DNA of 44,357 nucleotides from a virus, in IMG/VR virus record IMGVR_UViG_3300029915_000054, positions 1 through 44,357 of that record; one strand, written 5' to 3'. Both the position numbers and the translations under genes were made by a program. Below the pieces are notes generated by a model. It was not told the DNA's origin. It worked only from the letters and a program-made list of their open reading frames with translations, and did no database searches. Each line of letters opens with the position of its first letter. Positions within the stretch are counted from its first letter, which is position 1. Below are positions 4,906 to 41,584 of the stretch, piece after piece.

Positions 4906-6042
4906 TTAGTATTTAACGTAACGAAACACTACATATGATTGTTGTATAATATTCATTGCGGTTTGAGGTACGCTTGTCCGCCCATTGATACCCGTACTTG
5001 TTTGAGCCGGAGTAGTATATCGCGTACCTTGCGCGAACCCGAAAGCAAAATCTTTGGGAACGGTACTAGGCGCAGATAATAAAGAGTTATGGGTATGGTC
5101 TACCATGTCCGTTAATAACATTGTATAGGTATCGCTAGTCGCGGGATTCGTGTTACCTAGTTTGTTTCCTATTTGCGTATTTCCCGAACCGCCCGAAGCC
5201 ATGCTAACCCGTCTCAAACAATTAGGTACACCGAAATTTGTAGCCCCGCCACTTGCCCCATAGCCGTATGGTAGAAAAGTAAGTGTGAATGTTCCAGACG
5301 AAGCCGCCGCCGCGCTTAAAGTGATAGTGGTTGAACCTACTGCGGTTATATAAGTACCTGCTGTGATATTGCTGGATTCAACATAACAAGGCGTGGAGTT
5401 ACCTGCGTTCGGTAAGTACGCCGAAACTAAAGCGATAACGTCCGAAGGAACGGTAACCACGGTAGTACTATTTGTTGTACAGGTTGCGGTATATGTCAAC
5501 GCTTGAAATAAAAGCGGGTAGGCAGTCCGAGCATAAGACGCGCCATTACAAAGTAACGCCCCCACATACCCTCTAGGGCTTGCCGAATCAATATAAGTAC
5601 CGGGGGCTACCGCACGACCACCAGACACAACAATCCAATTATTATCCGCACCGGGTACAGAGGTATTCCCGTTTACTTGGCTTTCCCATATTTGATATCC
5701 ATATGGTGCGCCCGCGGTATACGCGACTCGCGCGAATATAGGATAACTTGCAGGACCACCTACAGGGGGCGAACCCGAAGCCGGGGCTACCCAAAGAGGC
5801 GCGCCCGCTAATTGTATTTGTTGGATAGCTGAGGTTATATCTAGCATTAATTGGTTAAATTGAGGACGGGGAACTGGGAGAGCCGAGGGAACGGTACTCA
5901 AGTCCTCTTCATAGTTTGGGGTAAACCCGTATTGATAACTCAATGGCCCGGTAGTACCTCCGGTACTATCGATTGCCACCACGTCCGATGGTCCAGCGTC
6001 TACCGCATATGGGTATAAAAAATAGGGATTAGCAACAGTCAT
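4906..6042 (-). CDS. Tail fibre protein with collar domain, 378 aa
   Basis: Residues about 158-182 (RGYVGALLCNGASYART) and 268-282 (TNFGVPNCLRR) form a phage tail collar domain, and the C-terminus (DHTHNS, then YVVFRYVKY) closes it. The collar is split by an insert at about residues 186-257 made of Thr/Ser-rich beta sequence that resembles modules in the sheath and cement proteins. The N-terminal 150 residues likely attach to the baseplate, since the gene follows the DUF2612 baseplate gene. Probably a host-binding short fibre. Confidence 0.8.
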   Translation of the reverse strand: MTVANPYFLYPYAVDAGPSDVVAIDSTGGTTGPLSYQYGFTPNYEEDLSTVPSALPVPRPQFNQLMLDITSAIQQIQLAGAPLWVAPASGSPPVGGPASYPIFARVAYTAGAPYGYQIWESQVNGNTSVPGADNNWIVVSGGRAVAPGTYIDSASPRGYVGALLCNGASYARTAYPLLFQALTYTATCTTNSTTVVTVPSDVIALVSAYLPNAGNSTPCYVESSNITAGTYITAVGSTTITLSAAAASSGTFTLTFLPYGYGASGGATNFGVPNCLRRVSMASGGSGNTQIGNKLGNTNPATSDTYTMLLTDMVDHTHNSLLSAPSTVPKDFAFGFAQGTRYTTPAQTSTGINGRTSVPQTAMNIIQQSYVVFRYVKY

Positions 6043-6054
6043 TGTGTAAGCTCC

Positions 6055-6711
6055 TTATATTCTGGCAACGCCCGCAGGTCGTGGGAATATGTCTAAATTG
6101 TTCATAACCGAAAATAACGCCGGAGGAAAATCAGAACCTGTAAAAACATATTCGATAGTCATATCAAGATTATCGATAACGTAAATCGTTCCTGTATACC
6201 CGATGGTGTTATCCGTACAAAGATGATTAAAAAACTCGTTAATGTCGTCTACGTCACCCAAATTACATAATTGAAAATATCGAAGTCTTAACAAAAATTG
6301 TTGCTGTTGTACTGTAAGCGCAAAGAATTGAGATTTTGTAGAAAAGTTACCGCTACCGGGGTTTGCGATAATCGTTGTACCAAAGTTTTTATAATCGTTT
6401 TCTAAGTCTGGATAACTCGGGTCAAACGCATTAAAGCCCCAAATAGGCTTTGCGGGCGGTTCGTCACCAATTGGGATGTATACAGGAACATTTAAAATAA
6501 TCGACCACACGACCATGCCGAATATTGTAGGGTCGGGGGTGCATAAGTCGAAAATGGTTTGTTCCCAATTCAACCAAAAAACTTGATGATTCGCAAATAA
6601 CCAGTTTTGTTTGTCACCGATTAATGTACGAATATTGCGCGAGTTCTGATATTGCCACAAAACCGCCTGTTCAACATCAATCGCAAAAAAGTCAAAGTCT
6701 TGTATTCTCAT
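6055..6711 (-). CDS. Baseplate protein, DUF2612 family
   Basis: The 218-residue protein has the DUF2612 features: an N-terminal QYQNS--I-TLI segment and aromatic-rich beta segments, with PxG near the C-terminus. In Mu- and P2-like phages this slot after gpJ holds the wedge protein that links baseplate to fibres (gpI/gp48-like). It overlaps the J gene by four bases (ATGA). The next gene is the collar-domain fibre, consistent with a fibre-attachment role. Confidence 0.75.
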   Translation of the reverse strand: MRIQDFDFFAIDVEQAVLWQYQNSRNIRTLIGDKQNWLFANHQVFWLNWEQTIFDLCTPDPTIFGMVVWSIILNVPVYIPIGDEPPAKPIWGFNAFDPSYPDLENDYKNFGTTIIANPGSGNFSTKSQFFALTVQQQQFLLRLRYFQLCNLGDVDDINEFFNHLCTDNTIGYTGTIYVIDNLDMTIEYVFTGSDFPPALFSVMNNLDIFPRPAGVARI

Positions 6712-8459
6712 GAGGATAGCACGTTCACAATGATATTAGAGGCATCTATAGTAGCAAGTTGATAGACGGCTATGGGTATCTCAGCGGAACTGGTCGGCGT
6801 TGTTGGAGCTGTAGCAATGAATAGGCTTTGAACATAAATATTAGGATTGAGACGAGTTACCGCCCCCGCCAATTCAAAGGATGAAACATTTTGTCCAACG
6901 ACTAGCCCGGCAATTCCCGGTACTAAACCATTAACATAATCTAAAATCGCGTTTGTTACAATTTGTACTACGTTTTGAACCGAGTTTATAAAGCTAACAT
7001 TCACAATGACATTAACCGGGACGCTCGCGGGGGTGTCAAATAACACGGTCATAACCTGATTGCTGTACGGTACGATTACCTGTGCGCTTATCGCGTTACC
7101 TGGTCCGTTATTGTAAGCCGCGCCCGCGCTTTTCTTAGAAACTAAGGCTTGAGCAACGGTAGAAACTGTACCGCTGGATGTGCCATCGTTCGCGTTATTA
7201 ACCGAAACCCAGCCGCTAACAGGTGTTACAATCGTGGTTAAACTTCCCGCAGGGCATGAAATAACGCCAGCCGTTAGACATTGGAAAGTCGTTTGTATCG
7301 AACCGCTCGCCGGGATAGTTACAGAGGCCAAAGTTTGATAAACAAAATTCCCACTTTGCGCTTGTGAACCCGCCGGAACTACCGTACTCGGAGTACCGGT
7401 AATTGTGCCTATAACCACGGTTTGTACATTGTTCGTATCAAAGGCATTAGTAACCGAAGTTAAGCCCGAAACGGGGGTTACAATCGTGGTTAGCGTACCA
7501 ATAGGACACGCAATCGAGCCGGTACTTACCGATTGAAATAAAACGTCTATAACCCCGCTTACGGGAATAACCACGGTATTAACCGTTGCGAATACATTAC
7601 CATTACTTGAAACTTGAGTACCCGCAGGAACCGAAGTAGTAGCAACCCCCGTTAATGTACCGATAACCGTTGAATAAGTACCCGTTCCGGTAGTATCGCA
7701 ATCGACACACGCATAAATAGAGTTTCGAACCATCGAAACCCCGCTAATTGTTTGAGTAGTAGAATTGACGTTTTCTAAAAACGACATGCTCTTAACGCCC
7801 GGTACTAAAGTTACCCCGGATATAATCGCCAGAGCTACAGACGCGCCTTGCGTAGCAAGCGTATTTAATCTATAAATTCGCGCTTGTAAATCGCTTTGGG
7901 TTATATTGCCAAGAATCGGAGAAGCGGAATTGGTCACGCTATCCCATCCTAGAATAGGGGTAATAATATTTGTTAAAGTACCTTCTGGAGCGGGAATTGG
8001 ACCATCGACCAGCGAATTAAATTGTACCGCCGGAATAATACCTGAGTCGGGTATAGTCTCTAGTTCGACTGTAACAAATTGATTATTATCCCCTGTTCCT
8101 GTTTCAGCCACTACCGAGCCGATAGGAATCACTGTGCCGGGCGTTCCCTCAATTGAAGCAAATGTTACCGAAGGGCTGGCCGCTGTTCTTCCATAGGGGT
8201 TTGTAAGCGACATAATGTCATCAAGAAAAATACCGCCCGCATAGTTCGGGTTAATCTGATTTGCGAGCTTTGCGTTATTTTCTGCAACCGCAATCCTCGC
8301 TTGTACCTCGGCTTGAATTAGCATACCTTGGGGCGTGTTAGGAGTAACAACCAGTTCAGAGCCAAACAGGGCTTGATATTCTTCCACCACCTGTTGCTCG
8401 ATAAATGCGGCATCGACTACGATAACCCCGGTGTCCGTTATGTAATTATATACCGGCAT
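6708..8459 (-). CDS. Baseplate wedge protein J/gp47-like, 583 aa, expanded
   Basis: The N-terminal 90 residues (TPQGMLIQ, then ANQINPNYAGG-FLD) and C-terminal 150 residues match baseplate J proteins. The family usually has 300-400 residues. The extra length comes from a beta unit present three times, at about residues 97-178, 265-340 and 347-423, each with a P-G--V ... IP-SG ... GTLT-IVTPVSG--SVTN pattern. The central gpJ role is to form the wedge ring around the hub. It sits between the gp46-like gene and the DUF2612 gene, the standard order. Confidence 0.85.
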   Translation of the reverse strand: MPVYNYITDTGVIVVDAAFIEQQVVEEYQALFGSELVVTPNTPQGMLIQAEVQARIAVAENNAKLANQINPNYAGGIFLDDIMSLTNPYGRTAASPSVTFASIEGTPGTVIPIGSVVAETGTGDNNQFVTVELETIPDSGIIPAVQFNSLVDGPIPAPEGTLTNIITPILGWDSVTNSASPILGNITQSDLQARIYRLNTLATQGASVALAIISGVTLVPGVKSMSFLENVNSTTQTISGVSMVRNSIYACVDCDTTGTGTYSTVIGTLTGVATTSVPAGTQVSSNGNVFATVNTVVIPVSGVIDVLFQSVSTGSIACPIGTLTTIVTPVSGLTSVTNAFDTNNVQTVVIGTITGTPSTVVPAGSQAQSGNFVYQTLASVTIPASGSIQTTFQCLTAGVISCPAGSLTTIVTPVSGWVSVNNANDGTSSGTVSTVAQALVSKKSAGAAYNNGPGNAISAQVIVPYSNQVMTVLFDTPASVPVNVIVNVSFINSVQNVVQIVTNAILDYVNGLVPGIAGLVVGQNVSSFELAGAVTRLNPNIYVQSLFIATAPTTPTSSAEIPIAVYQLATIDASNIIVNVLSS

Positions 8460-13334: not shown

Positions 13335-15734
13335 TTAGATTAAGATATCCTGTCCATTGACTAAGCGGATAACATCGTCTTTGCTATAGATTAAAGTGTA
13401 TTTCGCGCTGTATACGCCCGCATTGTTGATAATCGCGCAATCAACCCAGTAACCGATAGATTGAACCTGATACCATGCGTTATCGTCATTAGTTTGAGCC
13501 GTGATAAACATTCTTTGCGCACTCGATAAAGTCTTATTCGCGCTGATTGTTCCGTTAGCTAAAGCCGTATTAATTACAGATTGTAAACCCGCCAGAATTT
13601 GCGCCCGTCCTTGAGTATTGGCAGGTATTTGATTGGATGTTACAAACATGTTAAGAATTTCGGTTGTAATCGCATCTTTTAACCAAATTTCGTTTACATA
13701 CGTGGTCATGTCAAGTGGGCTTGGTGACGCGCCTTGTAATACTCCGATTTGATAAAAGTTAACAGGGTCGCCCGCTTGTTGGGTGTTTCCGTAGTAGTTA
13801 ACTGAAACCGCATCATATTGATTTTTTGCTTCATCAGTAACAACGCTAGGGAATACGCCAGCGAATGGACCTTGGAACATATAATTTTGTACAGAGTTAC
13901 GTGCATAATAATCGGTAGCCGCTTCCACCATCATTGGTATTTGCTCGGGGAATTGGTTAAACACGAATTGCAATACCTCAGAAGCCGAACCGGTGGCAGC
14001 ATTAGAGATAGTTACGTTTGTACTTGGTGAAGCCGCTATGGCAATAATCACACTGCCTGCCGGAATATTCGCACCTATTACTGGCATCCCGATTGCAAGC
14101 CCCGCAGTACTTGGCAAGCCCGCGATTACCGCAGAACTTGAGCTAACTGTACCTGTTAAAAAGAATGATAGGCCGGACAATGTTAACGCTGTACCTCCGA
14201 TTAAACCGAGTCCTGTAGAATCATTCGTCCACGCAACATAATTGCTTGCCGTTACCGGTACGCAAAACATGAACATGTTATTTTTTGCAAGATTCCAATT
14301 ACCTGCTAAAATCGCATCTGATAAACTTAGGTTCAAATTGTTCAAGAATAAGAACGAACCGAAGTTATTAGAACGCGATACAGAATCGTCTAAACATTGG
14401 GTAATTGTTTGAGCCGCCGAACCGTTAGAAACAATCGCGCCCGCGCTGTATACGCCGTTAATGAAAGTGGCTCTAGGCAACCATCCAAGCAAAGGAGACG
14501 GGGTTAAATCTGTTCCGCTTGTACCCGCTTGCAATTCGATTGCATAATCACCAACTGAACCGCCAGTAAATACAAAACCGCCGTTTGAACTAACAACAGT
14601 CGAACCCGCAAAAACTGTATTCGCTGGTGTGAAAAATTCTATCGGAGTGGTTGCTGCGATAAAACTTAAATTCTCTGTGCCTGAACCTGTAGCCGCATCG
14701 GATAAAACAATAGTCGTGCTATTAGTAATGGATGAAATGGTTGTACCCGGGTCTATGTCAACTCCTGATACTTTCATGCCTATATTAAGTACCGAAGTAT
14801 CGGCCAACCCGGTAACGATGTTACTTGAGTTAGTCAAAACCCCCGCTTGTACTAAGCCTAACGGGGCTTGAGATAATATAATCGTAGTACTGGTTGTCGC
14901 CGTAGGCGTAAAGGTTACAGTTATTGAAGCTGAGGCCGTAGCGTTCGCGGAGATAGTGATCGAAGTATCAGCAATCACAGATAAAACCGTGGAGTTAATC
15001 GGGATTCCTGCGCCTGAAACATTTTGACCGGGTAAAACACCTGTGGTACTCGCCATCGTAATAACGGGGCTTGTTGAAACCGTAGTACCTGGCAAAGTAA
15101 ACGGAGCTAAAGAAATAGAAGAAATAGAAGTACCGAGAGGTATATCTGTTCCTATAACGTGCATACCCGCCACTAAATTAGCGGTACTGCTTAGCCCGGT
15201 AACAGTTGTTGAACCAGAGGTCAACGAGCCCACCAAGTTAGTAATGAATTCAGAGTTAACCGCTTCGGTTAAAATATTCGCTACGTCTGTTAAATCGGTG
15301 GCACTAACAAAGCTAACATTATTAAATGTTCCGATTACTGGAGTACCAACTACACCATTAACGATAGGCGCGATAGTAATACCGAAAGAGCCGTTATTGA
15401 TCCCGTTCCAGTTATTTATATTGGTATTGTTCCCTGATATTGAGCGAATCATAGGAGCAACATCAGTAGAATTCCATCGTGCGAATTGGATAGACGCTGG
15501 TTGTACAAGTGTTTTACTTATGAATGAAAAGTAAAAAATTGCTCTTTGGGCTTCTTCTGAGGATATGCCGAAGAACGAAATCACTTGAGCCGCGCTAGTG
15601 AATTCCACGAAAGTATGGGGAGGCACTAACAGACTGCCTGTAAAAAATCTACCGACTAAATCCCTTGTAGGAACATTCGCCGAAGCCCCTACGCCGGAGA
15701 CGATGTTTACATAATTCTGGGGTGAAATACTCAT
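13335..15734 (-). CDS. Tail sheath protein (DUF3383), 799 aa with inserted beta modules
   Basis: Residues 1-165 (AANVP-RDL, FVEFTSAAQVISFFG, EEAQRAI-YF) and about 600-799 (MMVEAATDYYA, then WL-DAI and PANTQGRAQI) match DUF3383 sheath proteins, usually 350-500 residues. The extra length comes from Thr/Ser/Gly-rich beta modules at about residues 171-213, 218-277, 298-360 and 526-593, sharing GLSST-L--GM-V-G--IP-GT-I-SI ... T-I-LS--ATGS. Sheath subunits contract to drive the tube. The modules probably point outward and may add surface adhesion. Confidence 0.85.
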   Translation of the reverse strand: MSISPQNYVNIVSGVGASANVPTRDLVGRFFTGSLLVPPHTFVEFTSAAQVISFFGISSEEAQRAIFYFSFISKTLVQPASIQFARWNSTDVAPMIRSISGNNTNINNWNGINNGSFGITIAPIVNGVVGTPVIGTFNNVSFVSATDLTDVANILTEAVNSEFITNLVGSLTSGSTTVTGLSSTANLVAGMHVIGTDIPLGTSISSISLAPFTLPGTTVSTSPVITMASTTGVLPGQNVSGAGIPINSTVLSVIADTSITISANATASASITVTFTPTATTSTTIILSQAPLGLVQAGVLTNSSNIVTGLADTSVLNIGMKVSGVDIDPGTTISSITNSTTIVLSDAATGSGTENLSFIAATTPIEFFTPANTVFAGSTVVSSNGGFVFTGGSVGDYAIELQAGTSGTDLTPSPLLGWLPRATFINGVYSAGAIVSNGSAAQTITQCLDDSVSRSNNFGSFLFLNNLNLSLSDAILAGNWNLAKNNMFMFCVPVTASNYVAWTNDSTGLGLIGGTALTLSGLSFFLTGTVSSSSAVIAGLPSTAGLAIGMPVIGANIPAGSVIIAIAASPSTNVTISNAATGSASEVLQFVFNQFPEQIPMMVEAATDYYARNSVQNYMFQGPFAGVFPSVVTDEAKNQYDAVSVNYYGNTQQAGDPVNFYQIGVLQGASPSPLDMTTYVNEIWLKDAITTEILNMFVTSNQIPANTQGRAQILAGLQSVINTALANGTISANKTLSSAQRMFITAQTNDDNAWYQVQSIGYWVDCAIINNAGVYSAKYTLIYSKDDVIRLVNGQDILI

Positions 15735-15737
15735 TTA

Positions 15738-16289
15738 TTATACTCCGTGTATGTTCGTGGAAATAGGCGGTGTAATCTTAGGACTGGTCGATACCCTTTC
15801 GTTTAAATATACTAACACAAAATCAAACGAAGGGGAGGCCTCGAAATTATCCCTATCATCCACGAAATATGGGTTAGTTATATCGCTAATACGCAAGATT
15901 CCAACGCCCGCATCATTCAATATATCTAAAGTTTTACTGCTTTGCATAATACAGGCGACTTCATTAACAAGGTCGGAGGCTGTAGGTATTGTAATATCCG
16001 AAGGGTTTTGAAGTACAAGCGCAGACACTTGGAACGTGGTTTCGTAATACTGGCTTTCAGTATGTACGAAATCCTGTGCGTTAACATCCCACACGTCCTC
16101 ATGTCTTAAAAACCCAAAGCGTTTATTAAAAATCTTTGTAAAAAATACCATCGGGGCGGTTGGTGTGCCTTGTTGCGTTGGTTGATTCGATTGTCTAACA
16201 ACAGTCGTTGTAAAACCATCCTCAATTAAGCCCGCTTGGATAATCGGTAGAAATAACTGTATGAGGGTGTTATCCGTATAACTTGACAT
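15738..16289 (-). CDS. Tail terminator / neck protein (LIC_12616-like), 183 aa
   Basis: The true start is the ATG at 16289, overlapping the previous stop (TAATG), not the in-frame codon at 16328. The protein resembles neck terminator proteins with PAPMVFFTKI-NKR-GF-RH and YYETTFQVSALV segments (about residues 44-95). It would cap the tube and sheath and join the tail to the head. It lies between the connector genes and the sheath gene. Confidence 0.75.
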   Translation of the reverse strand: MSSYTDNTLIQLFLPIIQAGLIEDGFTTTVVRQSNQPTQQGTPTAPMVFFTKIFNKRFGFLRHEDVWDVNAQDFVHTESQYYETTFQVSALVLQNPSDITIPTASDLVNEVACIMQSSKTLDILNDAGVGILRISDITNPYFVDDRDNFEASPSFDFVLVYLNERVSTSPKITPPISTNIHGV

Positions 16290-16657
16290 TATGCGCCCCC
16301 TATGTCTACTACCAGAACACCTTTCCAACCGTCTTGCGCGTACCAGTCGTTATTTGATTCGACTTGGTAGCGTTTACCGGCATAGGTCATTTGGTCGCCT
16401 GATACGTTCCTGTTTATGTCTAATACGTTATTTGAAGTATAGAACGTGGAATAATTCTTTTGTAAATCGAGTCCGTAAAGTTCATACAGCTTTCTTGGAA
16501 CTGCTTGAAAACTTCCAAACATTTCAACGGGGTCAAGATATACCGTAATGTCTTGGCCAACCGCATTAGTAGAACGTGAGGCATATTGATAGTACATTAC
16601 CACTTGCTTTGCGATTAGGGTTAACGCCATATTTAATAGATTTTGACCTGGTATCAT
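16289..16657 (-). CDS. Head-tail collar/joining protein, 122 aa
   Basis: The N-terminus (PGQNLLNMALTLIAKQ) and the middle (GQDITVYLDPVEMFGSFQAVP, YGLDLQKNY-TFYT) match a conserved phage 'collar protein' group found between HK97 gp10-like and terminator genes. Its end SNNDWYAQDGW is also typical. It is probably a neck component. The exact biochemical role in this group is not established. Confidence 0.65.
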   Translation of the reverse strand: MIPGQNLLNMALTLIAKQVVMYYQYASRSTNAVGQDITVYLDPVEMFGSFQAVPRKLYELYGLDLQKNYSTFYTSNNVLDINRNVSGDQMTYAGKRYQVESNNDWYAQDGWKGVLVVDIGGA

Positions 16658-17175
16658 TTGCCTGTCTCCACTTCGTAGGAAACGGTCGCTTGCATGTGTC
16701 CAGTATCGATTAACGGCTTAGATATTCCCGCAGCTTGAGACTTTGTTAAACGCCCTTTAGGAACGCTTCGCCCGGGTCGATTTAATCGAGCCTCAATCGT
16801 TGCGCGTTTTAGAGGGGGAGAGAATACCAAAGAGATTGAATGTTTAATATCTTCGGAGGCTCTTATGCCAATATTATCTAAGACGGCCATAACCGTGGAC
16901 TTTTTAGCTAAAACAGCTTTAAGCCCTCTTCGCCCTATATCTTCCCATGTCTTTTGGTCACGAATTATTGCAGGGCGAATAAATGGACGGGCGGGTATAT
17001 TTTTGTTCGGATTGCCGTATTCATTTTGAGCTGCTATAGCTGCGACCGGTGTGGATTTTTCATCGTCATAACGCGCACTAGGGAACCAGCCGATTTTCAC
17101 CGTACCGGGTTGTAACGCCTTCGCTATGTTTTCTAACGCTTTCGGATTATCTCGTCTTATAGTCACACTACCCAT
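16654..17175 (-). CDS. Tail completion / head-tail joining protein (HK97 gp10-like), 173 aa
   Basis: The pattern KIGWFPSARY near residue 30 and NIPARPFIRPAI near 80-91 is characteristic of gp10-like and virion morphogenesis proteins. The open frame begins at a GTG (17181); the ATG at 17175 is preferred, with GGGG seven bases upstream. It overlaps the DUF4054 gene by 13 bases. It acts at the head-tail interface, probably in finishing the connector or tail. Confidence 0.65.
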   Translation of the reverse strand: MGSVTIRRDNPKALENIAKALQPGTVKIGWFPSARYDDEKSTPVAAIAAQNEYGNPNKNIPARPFIRPAIIRDQKTWEDIGRRGLKAVLAKKSTVMAVLDNIGIRASEDIKHSISLVFSPPLKRATIEARLNRPGRSVPKGRLTKSQAAGISKPLIDTGHMQATVSYEVETGK

Positions 17176-17663
17176 GGCCACACCCCGTTATCCGAACCGA
17201 GAAACCCCGCGCGGACGTAGGAGCCACCGTAGTATTGACCGCCGGAGCTTTGTATTTGCAACATCGCCAGTAATTCTTGCCCAAAAGGACTCAAGCCCAA
17301 CCACCATTGAAATTGATTAGGGTTTGGGGGCGGTGTAACTGTGACCGTAACCTTATCGATTGTCGCGCTTTGTAGCTGATAGGGGATTGTACCCGGCGAA
17401 CCGCCAGAACCCGAACCAGCCCCATTACCTGTATTAACTAAATTAGTTAAATAGATTAAATGCGACATCATTAACTGGATTGCGTATTCGCGTTGGTCGC
17501 CTTGGATTGCTCCAAAGTTTCCAACATTGCTTATATAATTAATCGCATTGTTCCAGTAGGCTTGTAGTTTAATTTGAGGATAGCTAGTCGGGTCTGAATA
17601 TATCGCAAACTGAGGGTTAGCAATGTAACCGTTATAATCAAAAACCAGAATAGCTGGATTCAT
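17163..17663 (-). CDS. Head-tail connector adaptor (DUF4054), 166 aa
   Basis: The layout NPQFAIYSDPTSYPQIKLQAY, here read in parts, then W--AINYI and LMMSHLIYLTNL is that of DUF4054, a helical adaptor that docks under the portal. A Gly/Ser-rich loop (about residues 80-90) follows and then VTVTPPPNPNQFQWW and GQELLAML, also typical. Gene order capsid, small protein, DUF4054, gp10-like supports the call. Confidence 0.75.
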   Translation of the reverse strand: MNPAILVFDYNGYIANPQFAIYSDPTSYPQIKLQAYWNNAINYISNVGNFGAIQGDQREYAIQLMMSHLIYLTNLVNTGNGAGSGSGGSPGTIPYQLQSATIDKVTVTVTPPPNPNQFQWWLGLSPFGQELLAMLQIQSSGGQYYGGSYVRAGFLGSDNGVWPWVV

Positions 17664-17665
17664 AT

Positions 17666-18052
17666 TTATCTACCTTTCTTTTTGTAGATAGGGAGGTCTT
17701 CTTCGCTATCGTCACTTTTCTCAAAATCTTTAGGCGTTAAAGGTGCGCTCTCATCTTTTGGATTCATGTTAACCGCTATTTTCGCCGGGTCTGTTTTCTT
17801 GCTATCGACCACGATATAGCCGTCTTTAACTTGTTGTTGAAAGGATAAATCTTTCTGTAAAAGTTCCAATTCTTCATCGGTAACTTTAGTTACTACGCCC
17901 ATTGGCGTATCAAGAGCTTTTGGGTTTTTCATCCCGTGACCGCCGTGTATCTCGATTCGTTTAACGATTCTTGATAGGGATTTTGGGTCGGTCTTCGGGG
18001 CGTAAACCGCGAAAGAGTTACTGCATGTTAAAGTTGAATAAATAAAAGGCAT
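17666..18052 (-). CDS. Conserved hypothetical head-region protein, 128 aa
   Basis: The preferred start is ATG at 18052, nine bases after GGAG; an in-frame ATG at 18067 has that same GGAG inside it. The N-terminal 85 residues (FIYSTLTCSN, then IEIHGGHG, TPMGVVTKVTDEELELL) recur in related phages downstream of capsid genes. The C-terminal third is polar, acidic and probably disordered, ending in KKKGR. The role is unknown; capsid or connector assembly is inferred from position. Confidence 0.55.
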   Translation of the reverse strand: MPFIYSTLTCSNSFAVYAPKTDPKSLSRIVKRIEIHGGHGMKNPKALDTPMGVVTKVTDEELELLQKDLSFQQQVKDGYIVVDSKKTDPAKIAVNMNPKDESAPLTPKDFEKSDDSEEDLPIYKKKGR

Positions 18053-18075
18053 TGCATAATTCTCCATTGAATTGT

Positions 18076-18098
18076 AAACCCGCCCCCGAGAGGGCGAG
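18076..18098 (-). terminator. Possible weak terminator after capsid gene
   Basis: On the minus strand CTCGCCC (18098-18092) pairs with GGGCGGG (18085-18079) around a six-base loop, followed by TTT only. It lies in the 55-base gap after the major capsid gene. The short T run suggests partial termination or an RNA stabiliser that would leave more capsid than connector message. Confidence 0.4.
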
Positions 18099-18107
18099 CC
18101 TTTTTAT

Positions 18108-19235
18108 TTAGATACCTGTGAATCTTACTACAGCGAAAGGACGTTTACACATAACACCGGCTGTCGCGTTCGAGAAATCTTCCTCGTATGCTTTAGCTAG
18201 TTGTTGAACGCCTAACACTTGGAACTTAGCTGGAACCATTTGAATGAAGGTTAACCCTCCGTCTGTACTCATATCTTGGATTCTATCCGCGAACATGTAA
18301 AACACGTTTGCAGAACCGTTAGCGTTGTTAAGCTGTGGAGCAGAAACAACACGGCATCTTGGATAAGCATCTTCCAACCATGCGCGAACGCTGATACCAA
18401 AATCAGAGATAACGGTTAGGAAATCTACTGAATCGGTAGCAATTGCAAGAGTTAAATCTGCTTTTTCAGGGTCGATTGTATCTTGTGACTGTGTACGCAA
18501 TTGAACTACGGCTAAACGTAAGTCGTTCGTAATTTCTAGGAACGTCTTGTTTGACCAAAGTGTAGAAGTCGCCGCAGCGTTAGGAGGAACAGGGATATAA
18601 GAACCTAAACCGGGGTCATTCAAGAAACCGTATGTGTTGTTATCGCCAGAGTTGAACCCTACGAAACCAACAGTGTTACGGATAATCTCAAGAGCGAGCG
18701 CGGCAGCTTCACGTTTCATGCCTGAATCATCTACACGTAAACGAGCGGCACGAGCCGATTCCAATACGCCGACTTTCATACCTTCTTCAAAACGTACTAC
18801 TGTACGATAGTTGAAGTTAGTGTTCCAAGAGCTTAATGGTACGTTGGTATAATCTCCATAAACTTGTGAAGTACCAGTACGTTCCAAAATACCTTGTACG
18901 ACCTGTTCGTCTTCCCAAGAACCAGTGGTCATAATACCGACTAAATCGTCAATTTTACGAGCCGCAGTAATTACGAATACAAAGCCGGGTAACCAGTTTT
19001 GTAGGAACTGTACAGGTGTGCCAATGCTTCCAGTGGTAACGGTAGGCTGTACAGCGTCCATTGCCATGGCTTGCATTTTTAACATGTGTTTGTGACCGCT
19101 AAACATTTGGTCAACAATGTGTTTATTTAAGTTAATACCTAGACGTGGCAAGCTCTCAAACTGCTTGTGGTCAAAGTTTTCCAACGCCCGGACTTGTCGG
19201 GCTGATAAGTTGGATTTAACGTCATTCGCTCTCAT
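18108..19235 (-). CDS. Major capsid protein (DUF2184), 375 aa
   Basis: The protein matches DUF2184 capsids: a helical N-terminus, W-PG-VFVITAARKIDDL (about 85-105), GSWEDE-V, then GGLTFIQMVPAKFQVLGV near the C-terminus. It follows the protease/scaffold and cement genes, the usual order. HK97-like fold is expected for the family. No long N-terminal scaffold domain is present, in line with the separate acidic scaffold region in the DUF2213 protein. Confidence 0.85.
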   Translation of the reverse strand: MRANDVKSNLSARQVRALENFDHKQFESLPRLGINLNKHIVDQMFSGHKHMLKMQAMAMDAVQPTVTTGSIGTPVQFLQNWLPGFVFVITAARKIDDLVGIMTTGSWEDEQVVQGILERTGTSQVYGDYTNVPLSSWNTNFNYRTVVRFEEGMKVGVLESARAARLRVDDSGMKREAAALALEIIRNTVGFVGFNSGDNNTYGFLNDPGLGSYIPVPPNAAATSTLWSNKTFLEITNDLRLAVVQLRTQSQDTIDPEKADLTLAIATDSVDFLTVISDFGISVRAWLEDAYPRCRVVSAPQLNNANGSANVFYMFADRIQDMSTDGGLTFIQMVPAKFQVLGVQQLAKAYEEDFSNATAGVMCKRPFAVVRFTGI

Positions 19236-19249
19236 ATCAGTTCCTTATA

Positions 19250-19975
19250 TTAAGATGGGATAACTAGAGCAGGAGTAAGCGTAATAACCGCCAAACCTGC
19301 CGCGCTAACTGTATAATAATCTACCACAGCGTTTGCAAAAGATTTGCCAGCGGGTAAGTTATCGCCTGAAGGAACGAAAGTTAACGGCACTGTCGCTGTC
19401 GCGCTAGCTGCTTGAGAGATAACAATCGAAGTATTCGCAATTACTGAAACAACGGTTGTATTCGCAAGAATTCCCGCACCTGAAACCGCTTGGCCAGGGA
19501 ATACGCCAGTAGTACTAGCCATAGTTACAGTCGTGCTTGTGCTAGTTGTTCCGCCATTCAATACGAAAGGAGCTGATGAAATAGTGGACAATAAGCCAGT
19601 TACGTTATCAAAAACTACGCTATCGCCAATTGCGGCCGCGGCGGGTAAATTCACAATGAAACTTCCCATAGTCGCGCACTCTACGGCAGTAAAGTTAGGA
19701 ACGGTTAGGCTAGGAGCTAGAGGGATACCACCAGCACCGAACAAAGCAACGTCTTTCGGGTCTACTAAAATACCAGCGAAAGGGGCGTTAGCCGAAGGCT
19801 TACCAGCCGCGCAGAAACCTTGTGAGGTTACAGAGCAAGCGATAGAACCGATAATGTTATAGGCAGCAGAAGCGGAGTTAATAGTAAACGCCTCGGCACG
19901 TGTAGGACCATCGGTGAATTGTTCACCGGCTACACCAAAACCTTGTTGTAAGGAAACAGTAGATTGAAAACCCAT
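19250..19975 (-). CDS. Capsid cement/decoration protein (Gp24-like) with inserted module, 241 aa
   Basis: The N-terminus (FQSTVSLQQGFGVAGE, TDGPTRAEAF) and FAGILVDPKDVALFG, then ECATMGSFIVNLPA, match the structural cement protein family; the end LPAGKSFANAVVDYYTV closes it. Between residues about 136 and 205 lies an insert (ASTTGVFPGQAVSGAGI, VVSVIANTSIVIS) nearly identical in pattern to one module of the sheath protein. The family stabilises the capsid surface at the hexamer joints, so the insert would sit outside the head. Confidence 0.8.
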   Translation of the reverse strand: MGFQSTVSLQQGFGVAGEQFTDGPTRAEAFTINSASAAYNIIGSIACSVTSQGFCAAGKPSANAPFAGILVDPKDVALFGAGGIPLAPSLTVPNFTAVECATMGSFIVNLPAAAAIGDSVVFDNVTGLLSTISSAPFVLNGGTTSTSTTVTMASTTGVFPGQAVSGAGILANTTVVSVIANTSIVISQAASATATVPLTFVPSGDNLPAGKSFANAVVDYYTVSAAGLAVITLTPALVIPS

Positions 19976-39379: not shown

Positions 39380-39572
39380 AATTAACGCCCGCCAGATTGG
39401 AGGATTAATCGTAGTTGTGGGCGATTACATAAAGGATTTACAAGAGAAACATAATACCATGGGTTTAACCGTAATAGAGGACGCGAAGCTACACCGAGCG
39501 CATAAACTCATGAAAGAGATAAACGATTTGCAACCCAAGAGGATAATTGTTGACACTACAGTCAACAAGTAA
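39372..39572 (+). CDS. Hypothetical protein, 66 aa, operator-encoded tail (GTG start)
   Basis: GTG at 39372, six bases after GAGG, is preferred over ATG at 39360. A long helix spans the second half (AKLHRAHKLMKEINDL). The last residues IIVDTTVNK come from promoter copy 3, as in the unrelated protein at 2125-2490. No family recognised. Confidence 0.5.
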   Translation: MIEINARQIGGLIVVVGDYIKDLQEKHNTMGLTVIEDAKLHRAHKLMKEINDLQPKRIIVDTTVNK

Positions 39573-39587
39573 TATACTCTCTTTATC
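39543..39587 (+). promoter_or_regulatory. Promoter with overlapping operator, copy 3
   Basis: Perfect dyad TTGTTGAC-N6-GTCAACAA at 39547-39568, -35 TTGACA 39550-39555, 17-base spacer, -10 TATACT 39573-39578. The 45-base cassette equals copies 1 and 2 apart from the dyad centre (ACTACA). The downstream CTCTCTTT/AAAGAGAG dyad is broken here. It reads into the gene at 39606. Confidence 0.85.
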
Positions 39588-39605
39588 AACTAAGAGGGTA
39601 AATAA

Positions 39606-41230: not shown

Positions 41231-41303
41231 AGCTATATGGTATCTGAATGATTACCTACAAAAGTTATCCACAGATACTGTGGAAAAGTCTGTGGGCAAA
41301 TAG
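41202..41303 (+). pseudogene. Remnant of second DUF3310 C-terminus, 33 aa
   Basis: A short frame reads RHKAIWYLNDYLQKLSTDT, matching KKAIWYLNDYL of DUF3310 upstream, then ends at TAG 41301-41303. The DNA of the two copies is similar but has synonymous changes. It overlaps the end of the HNH gene and begins ATG at 41202 after AAGGG, so it could still be translated. It looks like the original or a donor end of DUF3310 left behind by the HNH insertion. Confidence 0.7.
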
Positions 41304-41335
41304 TTGTTGATACTGGTGTCAATAAGGGGTATAAT
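41304..41335 (+). promoter_or_regulatory. Promoter with operator, copy 4 (degenerate)
   Basis: TTGTTGAT-N6-GTCAATAA (41304-41325) is the same dyad with two changes. The -35 box TTGATA (41307-41312) and -10 TATAAT (41330-41335) are 17 bases apart. The next gene's ATG touches the -10 box, and its AAGGGG ribosome binding site lies inside the spacer, so transcripts from this promoter would lack both. Confidence 0.75.
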
Positions 41336-41584
41336 ATGTTTGTTAAATGTAAGATAAAAACGATATTAGCGAAGCCGGTAGAATTTTTAATGAATGTTGA
41401 AACTATCGTAACGCTTGAGAAATTGGTGGATGAACACAAACTTAACCTTCACTTAAACACCGGTGATTTTGAGTTCTGGTTTGACTCCGAAGAAATCAAA
41501 GACGAAGTTTATAACGCATTCACCGAGTTGTTAGCAACTAAGCAAACCGTGATATCGGACAATATAAGTTTATTAACATTATAA
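41336..41584 (+). CDS. Hypothetical protein, 82 aa
   Basis: ATG at 41336 has AAGGGG (41324-41329) upstream. If only transcripts from the adjacent promoter exist, translation would have to start at the internal ATG at 41390 (64 aa). The protein is mixed alpha/beta and acidic in the middle (DFEFWFDSEEIKDEV). It precedes the SSB gene. No family recognised. Confidence 0.55.
   Translation: MFVKCKIKTILAKPVEFLMNVETIVTLEKLVDEHKLNLHLNTGDFEFWFDSEEIKDEVYNAFTELLATKQTVISDNISLLTL

Follow-up and report, generated by a model that had tools for sequence, protein, structure and literature searches.

A predicted barrel module rich in threonine and serine recurs in the sheath, cement and collar fibre of a 44-kb virus record, one sheath copy lying within another

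The virus record IMGVR_UViG_3300029915_000054, taken whole from a viral contig collection (44,357 bases; here called the window), encodes a tail sheath, a capsid cement protein and a tail collar fibre that all contain copies of one unit of about 65 amino acids (aa), which we refer to as the module. There are four copies in the sheath (S1 to S4), one in the cement (C) and one in the fibre (F), all on the minus strand, and one of the sheath copies, S2, is nested inside another, S1. The corresponding sites are empty in close relatives, and S2 itself most likely came from a cement-type gene. We think it fairly probable that the inserts, taken together, are copies of a single promiscuous surface-decoration module that provides weak multivalent contacts.

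Copies of the module in the window

The carrier proteins and the copies are listed here, with the limits of the match to a hidden Markov model (HMM) in brackets where these differ from those of the feature.

13335..15734, minus strand: tail sheath of the E217 gp31 type, 799 aa (PF11863, E 2.9e-80; phrog_205; E217 gp31, E 1.1e-69)
15111..15239 (HMM 15114-15239), minus strand: S1a, the first part of module S1, sheath aa 166-208, strands 1-4, placed by HMM and by the strands of the sheath model
14892..15110 (HMM 14904-15095), minus strand: module S2, nested in S1, sheath aa 209-281, closest to cement copies
14847..14891, minus strand: second part of module S1, sheath aa 282-296, strand 5 onward, placed by alignment to the uninterrupted S1 of L002 and L005
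14652..14846 (HMM 14655-14846), minus strand: module S3, sheath aa 297-361, placed by HMM, mostly 81-94 in predicted local distance difference test (pLDDT) in the sheath model
13956..14165 (HMM 13959-14162), minus strand: module S4, sheath aa 524-593, placed by HMM, at the commonest sheath site in relatives
19250..19975, minus strand: capsid cement of the E217 gp24 type, 241 aa (PF22758, E 6.1e-10; phrog_3645; E217 gp24, E 3.4e-4)
19358..19576 (HMM 19370-19561), minus strand: module C, cement aa 134-206, placed by HMM, at a site that is empty in relatives
4906..6042, minus strand: tail collar fibre, 378 aa (phrog_19618 tail collar, E 1.2e-14; PF07484 at 23.8 bits, below the cut-off of 24)
5269..5493, minus strand: module F, fibre aa 184-258, placed by HMM match, with a 9-residue extra loop

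The HMM, built from 14 copies, gave 60 matches across the loci fetched as relatives (numbered L002, L005 and so on) and none in reversed open reading frames (ORFs), and rebuilding it added no more; against whole records it gave 87 matches in 36 of 49, the window among them. In Smith-Waterman comparisons S2, S3, S4, C and F scored, in every pairing, higher than any of 300 shuffled versions of the partner. For the half-copy S1a this held against S2 (barely, 60 against 59), S3, S4 and C, and failed against F (a score of 30, with a shuffle maximum of 59). Chance likeness of Thr/Ser-rich stretches is ruled out by the reversed decoys on the one hand and the shuffles on the other.

A first-pass annotation of the window, made from the letters alone, had proposed a module shared by sheath, cement and collar fibre, and so borne by head, tail and fibre alike. 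HMM and shuffle tests bear this out, and with four sheath copies the claim was if anything understated; the insert positions it gave lie within a few bases of the HMM matches. It had also singled out one sheath copy and the cement copy as close in both protein and DNA, and these are S2 and C, the closest pair of all (46/73 aa; 61% of codon-aligned bases; 121/184 bases in a local DNA alignment). What it took to be a simple series in the first sheath block does consist of module, but the actual order is S1, with S2 nested inside it, and then S3. The 9-residue extra loop of F is absent from the fibre module of the relative L003 when the two are aligned.

The proteins that bear these inserts appear otherwise normal for their families, as had also been suggested. 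The predicted model of the sheath matches the E217 sheath (8env_A) with a Z of 38.1 over 465 residues, so the sheath core is ordinary, and in both core sequence and fold the protein is an E217-type sheath. E217 gp31 and gp24 belong to the same families as the sheath and cement of the window; the E217 sheath has 504 aa, and its alignment with the window sheath leaves the modules out. The cement belongs to the Phage_cement family PF22758 (39.8 bits against a cut-off of 27), and the fibre gave no match in the phage sequence search.

The nested copy and the empty sites of relatives

S1 starts at sheath aa 166, is broken at about aa 208 by S2, and resumes at about aa 282. In the aligned sheaths of L002 (on the same contig as L007) and L005, S1 is continuous and S2 is absent. 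The sheath model has S1 strands at 164-168, 177-179, 192-194 and 203-208 before S2, and a fifth at 284-287 after it. When S2 was compared with 90 other modules, its top four matches were all cement copies (that of L009 scoring 222, of the window 193, of L007 186 and of L066 176), the best non-cement match in its own genome reaching 102, and the lead-in APF.L.G is common to S2 and the cement copies. A scan of viral contigs with the nested region found five loci: the L009 cement led with 67%, the remaining four were at 36%, and no second nested S2 came to light in that scan. Since its best matches are cement copies, S2 most likely derives, on sequence grounds, from a gene of cement type, either in this lineage or in one close to it.

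We rejected the idea that S2 is a free mobile element: it is in frame, and no element-like ends could be seen by eye. The S2 region contains no terminator-like site, and one promoter-like site against 0.5 expected. Only a short CTATTTC, perhaps by chance, recurs both in the cement gene and where S1 meets S2 on the left.

The sheaths of relatives form a graded series in module number. We labelled 47 full-length sheaths, from the loci of a capsid-protein scan (79 viral loci and one bacterial contig, a Gallionellaceae metagenome-assembled genome), from those of a sheath scan, and from the window; several sheath loci are near-duplicates, so the counts that follow are of records and not of independent phages. 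Fourteen sheaths are module-free, 27 have one module (583-608 aa), two have two (659 and 668 aa), three have three (723, 724 and 727 aa), and the window alone has four. Among the module-free sheaths, 11 have 498-520 aa, so that the 799-residue sheath is indeed unusually long, as the first-pass annotation had it, but the usual length of 350-500 residues given there is not that of this family. The other three module-free sheaths have 630-631 aa (L067:13436-15325, L068:5664-7556, L070:13359-15251) and seem by eye to have a native sheath stretch doubled, which is a different way of enlarging a sheath.

Expressed as equivalents in the L006 sheath, the insertion sites are at 88, about 139-158, about 170, 251 and about 307-313, and 32 of the 40 module-bearing sheath ORFs have a copy at about position 308. 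In L005 the sheath contains three modules and the cement is empty, and L006 has no module in either protein; the C site is empty in the 173-aa cement of both. A capsid-protein tree (73 rows) groups the window with L007 and L008 (support 100/98), and L009, L005 and L014 join them in a wider set that is supported as a whole but not in its internal branching. The inserts are mutually related and have empty sites in close relatives, so that neither of the outcomes foreseen as fatal to the shared-module idea (inserts of unrelated fold, or inserts carried ancestrally by all relatives without likeness to each other) came about.

The module is scarcer in cements, where six of 78 full-length ORFs have it, three of the six being nearly identical. 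Two cements (L074:751-1665 and L085:6648-7385) have a different barrel-like insert near the C site, not matched by the module HMM, which is perhaps a second module family using that site. An N-terminal extension resembling a signal peptide is present in the cements L072:9313-9981 and L074:751-1665, and L065:2270-3601 is a second cement-like gene, of 444 aa, with a normal 178-aa cement on the same contig.

In 20 regions, fetched because they held module matches, the module occurs in 16 fibres, 11 baseplate J proteins and three homologues of a 218-aa protein downstream of J. The gateway (neck) protein of L064, a homologue of E217 gp29, also has a copy, which shares 74% DNA identity with the sheath copy of the same locus, so that copying from one gene to another is likely here too. 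Beyond sheath and cement, relatives have the module in the gateway, in J, in another protein of the baseplate region and in the collar fibre; six virion protein families are represented, which qualifies the module as promiscuous. None of 82 capsid ORFs has it. Of the 91 modules, 74 find their closest counterpart in another genome but within the same protein family, which indicates that most copies have been inherited in place. In L132:1400-2503 (minus strand; aa 96-230), one of the homologues of the 218-aa protein, the array has a shifted register, consisting of a second half, a full copy and a first half, as if it had been opened at the same strand 4-5 loop that holds S2 in the window.

That the baseplate J protein of the window is a carrier is not supported: compared with each of S1a, S2, S3, S4, C and F, it did not score above the shuffle maximum. 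This protein (6708-8459) has 583 aa in the window and in L003 and 405 aa in L006, the extra length being J-type repeats and not module. The likely tape-measure protein of the window has only 392 aa. Elsewhere in the record there is a repeat of 51 nucleotides in four copies (721-771, 2461-2511, 39543-39593 and 41300-41350), the three closest of which resemble, by eye, a promoter with the palindrome TTGTTGAC-N6-GTCAACAA over the -35 box; from this, one phage regulator may control several operons.

Fold, composition and wider relatives

A prediction for S4 (49 rows) has six strands with a mean pLDDT of 95.7, and the module is predicted to be a barrel that folds on its own. The only significant sequence match in the PDB is 8eci_1 (profile E 5.6e-5), the decoration protein of the Arthrobacter phage Bridgette (PDB 8ECI, chain 1), and this is also the best structural match to the S4 model (Foldseek E 3.4e-3, TMq 0.76; Z 9.0, 1.7 A, 65 residues). 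The next structural matches, from Z 7.4 down, include ATP synthase barrels and, from phages, domains of the tail tube, tail tip and tailspike, so the barrel itself is common. No immunoglobulin (Ig)-like entry is among the structural matches listed, which excludes nothing. Profile (with high composition bias) and predicted structure both give the Bridgette protein and the module the same barrel, with 35% identity over 65 residues, and the former is a virion-surface protein, as we suppose the modules of the window to be. It is, however, free-standing and of about 125 aa, whereas the module is a loop insert found in six virion families in one to four copies.

Curated families offer little more. 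For 14 modules searched, the best Pfam match had E 0.026 and the best NCBIfam match 0.016, each in one member only, though the module is contained in PHROGs 17105, 6005, 5838, 10467 and 6002. Predicted viral structures gave nine matches (E up to 0.001), including a tail collar protein of a Bordetella phage and a virion protein of a Synechococcus phage. Searches of phages by tblastn with single modules returned one weak match or none, probably because of the low-complexity filter.

In bacteria the module is uncommon. At strict thresholds it was found in 4/150 genomes of one order, 3/398 of a phylum, 1/385 of a class and 4/16 of a family (sets that overlap in a few genomes, some of which may be draft assemblies). 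Its bacterial carriers include the flagellar proteins FliD (PF07195, PF02465) and FlgE (PF07559, PF22692) and proteins with a pilin-like start; two of the latter were run against Pfam, one having the methylation motif PF07963 and the other FG-GAP repeats only, and five more were recognized by eye. Two carriers in bacterial genomes are phage-like, one an adaptor (below the cut-off) and one a tail collar protein (24.1 bits against 24). One bacterial-genome ORF, L138:925-1836, has four tandem modules and no Pfam match.

The modules differ markedly in composition from the proteins that house them. Sheath modules have 34.4% Thr+Ser against 18.9% in the cores, 3.7% charged residues against 9.6%, and 0.3% Trp+Tyr against 6.0%; in cement, charged residues make up 0.8% of the modules and 7.0% of the rest. 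Fibre modules are less extreme, with 3.0% Trp+Tyr in two fibres. In the majority of diverged sheath pairs the rate of nonsynonymous change (dN) is about twice as high in modules as in cores: between the window and L005 it is 0.227 in modules and 0.111 in the core, with synonymous rates (dS, saturated in several pairs) of 1.84 and 1.11. For the cements of the window and L009, module and core dN are equal (0.133 and 0.135). As dN is far below dS in the modules of diverged pairs, they are under purifying selection.

What the module may do

Being an outer or appendage protein is the one trait that unites the carriers, and for this reason we place weak multivalent surface contact first. In the history we propose, in-frame recombination would copy the module into exposed loops of the sheath (at four or more sites), cement, gateway, baseplate and fibre. 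The newest sheath copy, S2, would derive from a gene of cement type and have entered the older S1 between its strands 4 and 5; copies, once placed, would mostly be inherited vertically and kept by purifying selection. The particle would then bear a repeated, nearly uncharged, Thr/Ser-rich outer coat, through which it could make weak contacts, many at a time, with anything it meets, host envelope or matrix included. The module-bearing loops presumably point to the outside; according to an excerpt of PMC9230969, additional domains of sheaths are as a rule located away from the tube. With the 180 cement and 204 sheath subunits that part of PMC10329688 gives for the E217 particle, a similar particle here would carry several hundred modules.

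Adhesion to the host or to mucus-like matter, as first suggested for this virion, is plausible. In its favour is the restriction of carriers to outer virion proteins and bacterial surface appendages; on the other side are the poverty of the modules in aromatic residues and charge, and a nearest solved relative that is a capsid decoration protein. We rejected adhesion as an established function because it is unproven, and weak adhesion taken alone seems to us possible at somewhat less than even chances.

Several further points weigh against the explanation as a whole. Typical sugar-binding domains are unlike modules so poor in aromatic and charged residues, and the lack of aromatics in particular argues against classic sugar binding. 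The sheath model predicts S2 poorly (pLDDT about 38-51), the window being the only row of the alignment to contain it, so that its fold rests on homology to C. The direction of copying, from cement to sheath, is read from similarity, and dS between S2 and C is 1.6, so near to saturation that neither a date nor the exact donor can be given. The profile match to 8eci_1 has a score of 26.3 with a bias of 23.8, a high composition bias, and with the next structural matches reaching Z 7.4 its margin is modest. Finally, dN is about equal to dS in the L029/L035 module, on very few changes.

Two other explanations are in our opinion unlikely, to about the same degree. The modules might stabilize the virion, touching each other or neighbouring subunits and cross-linking the capsid and sheath lattices as cement does. 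The nearest solved relative being a decoration protein fits well with this, as do the Bridgette capsid cement proteins, which part of PMC13033339 describes as dimers bridging capsomers around the penton, and the E217 sheath, whose extended subunits meet only through arms (in an excerpt of PMC10329688), leaving room for extra contacts. Yet fibres, baseplate proteins, FliD and pilin-like proteins also bear the module and form no such lattice, and insert sites differ within one protein family. Alternatively, a small self-folding domain might enter loops by chance recombination and be kept as harmless, selection maintaining folding only. The range of sheath copy number from 0 to 4 would be expected on such a basis, nesting and the register-shifted array imply that many loops accept the module, and the roughly doubled module dN in the majority of diverged pairs points the same way; against it, the same sites are retained across diverged sheaths (notably that at about 308) and in the fibre, and the capsid ORFs, 82 in all, are without the module.

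It is less likely again that the uncharged, Thr/Ser-rich coat acts as a shield, cutting non-specific sticking to particles and hiding the virion from proteases: the depletion of charge in sheath and cement modules speaks for it, but a folded barrel is a costly means to that end, and the rarity of the module in bacterial genomes is left unexplained. Very improbable, in our estimation, is the notion that the module is a common currency which the surface appendages of phages and bacteria exchange, and that self-associating phage modules (the solved relative being a capsid dimer) stick to those of host pili and flagella, though if true it would give virion-wide, receptor-independent concentration on module-bearing cells.

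The surface-decoration module that we favour has a close parallel. Promiscuous Ig-like domains of tailed phages were reportedly described by Fraser in 2006. Such domains in phage structural proteins are already known (as parts of PMC7602432, PMC9230969 and PMC10684548 attest), being small beta domains spread across fibre, baseplate, tail and head proteins, for which adhesion has been proposed (excerpts of PMC7602432 and PMC9230969). The promiscuity is the same, but an Ig sandwich has 7-9 strands (in an excerpt of PMC7602432), whereas the module has six in the model and is matched best by entries other than Ig; what the present case adds is nesting and empty sites. The multi-domain sheaths of large phages likewise have extra beta domains on a conserved core; the portion of PMC9230969 at hand ties these to large genomes, whereas the 799-aa sheath of the present record belongs to a sequence of 44 kb, and a likely donor gene can be named for it as well as intermediate steps. 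In the open literature, titles and abstract openings yielded no barrel module with this spread, nested insertion and link to flagella and pili.

One practical consequence is that annotation of sheaths, cements and fibres by length or local similarity will be misled by the module. More generally, it sets a barrel beside the Ig-like case and links the coats of phages with proteins of flagella and pili. These virion proteins provide a clear natural series of domain entry, from empty site through single copy and several copies to a copy within a copy with its likely donor gene, and with matched module-free and module-bearing relatives available, the old question of what phages gain from additional beta domains on their particles becomes testable.

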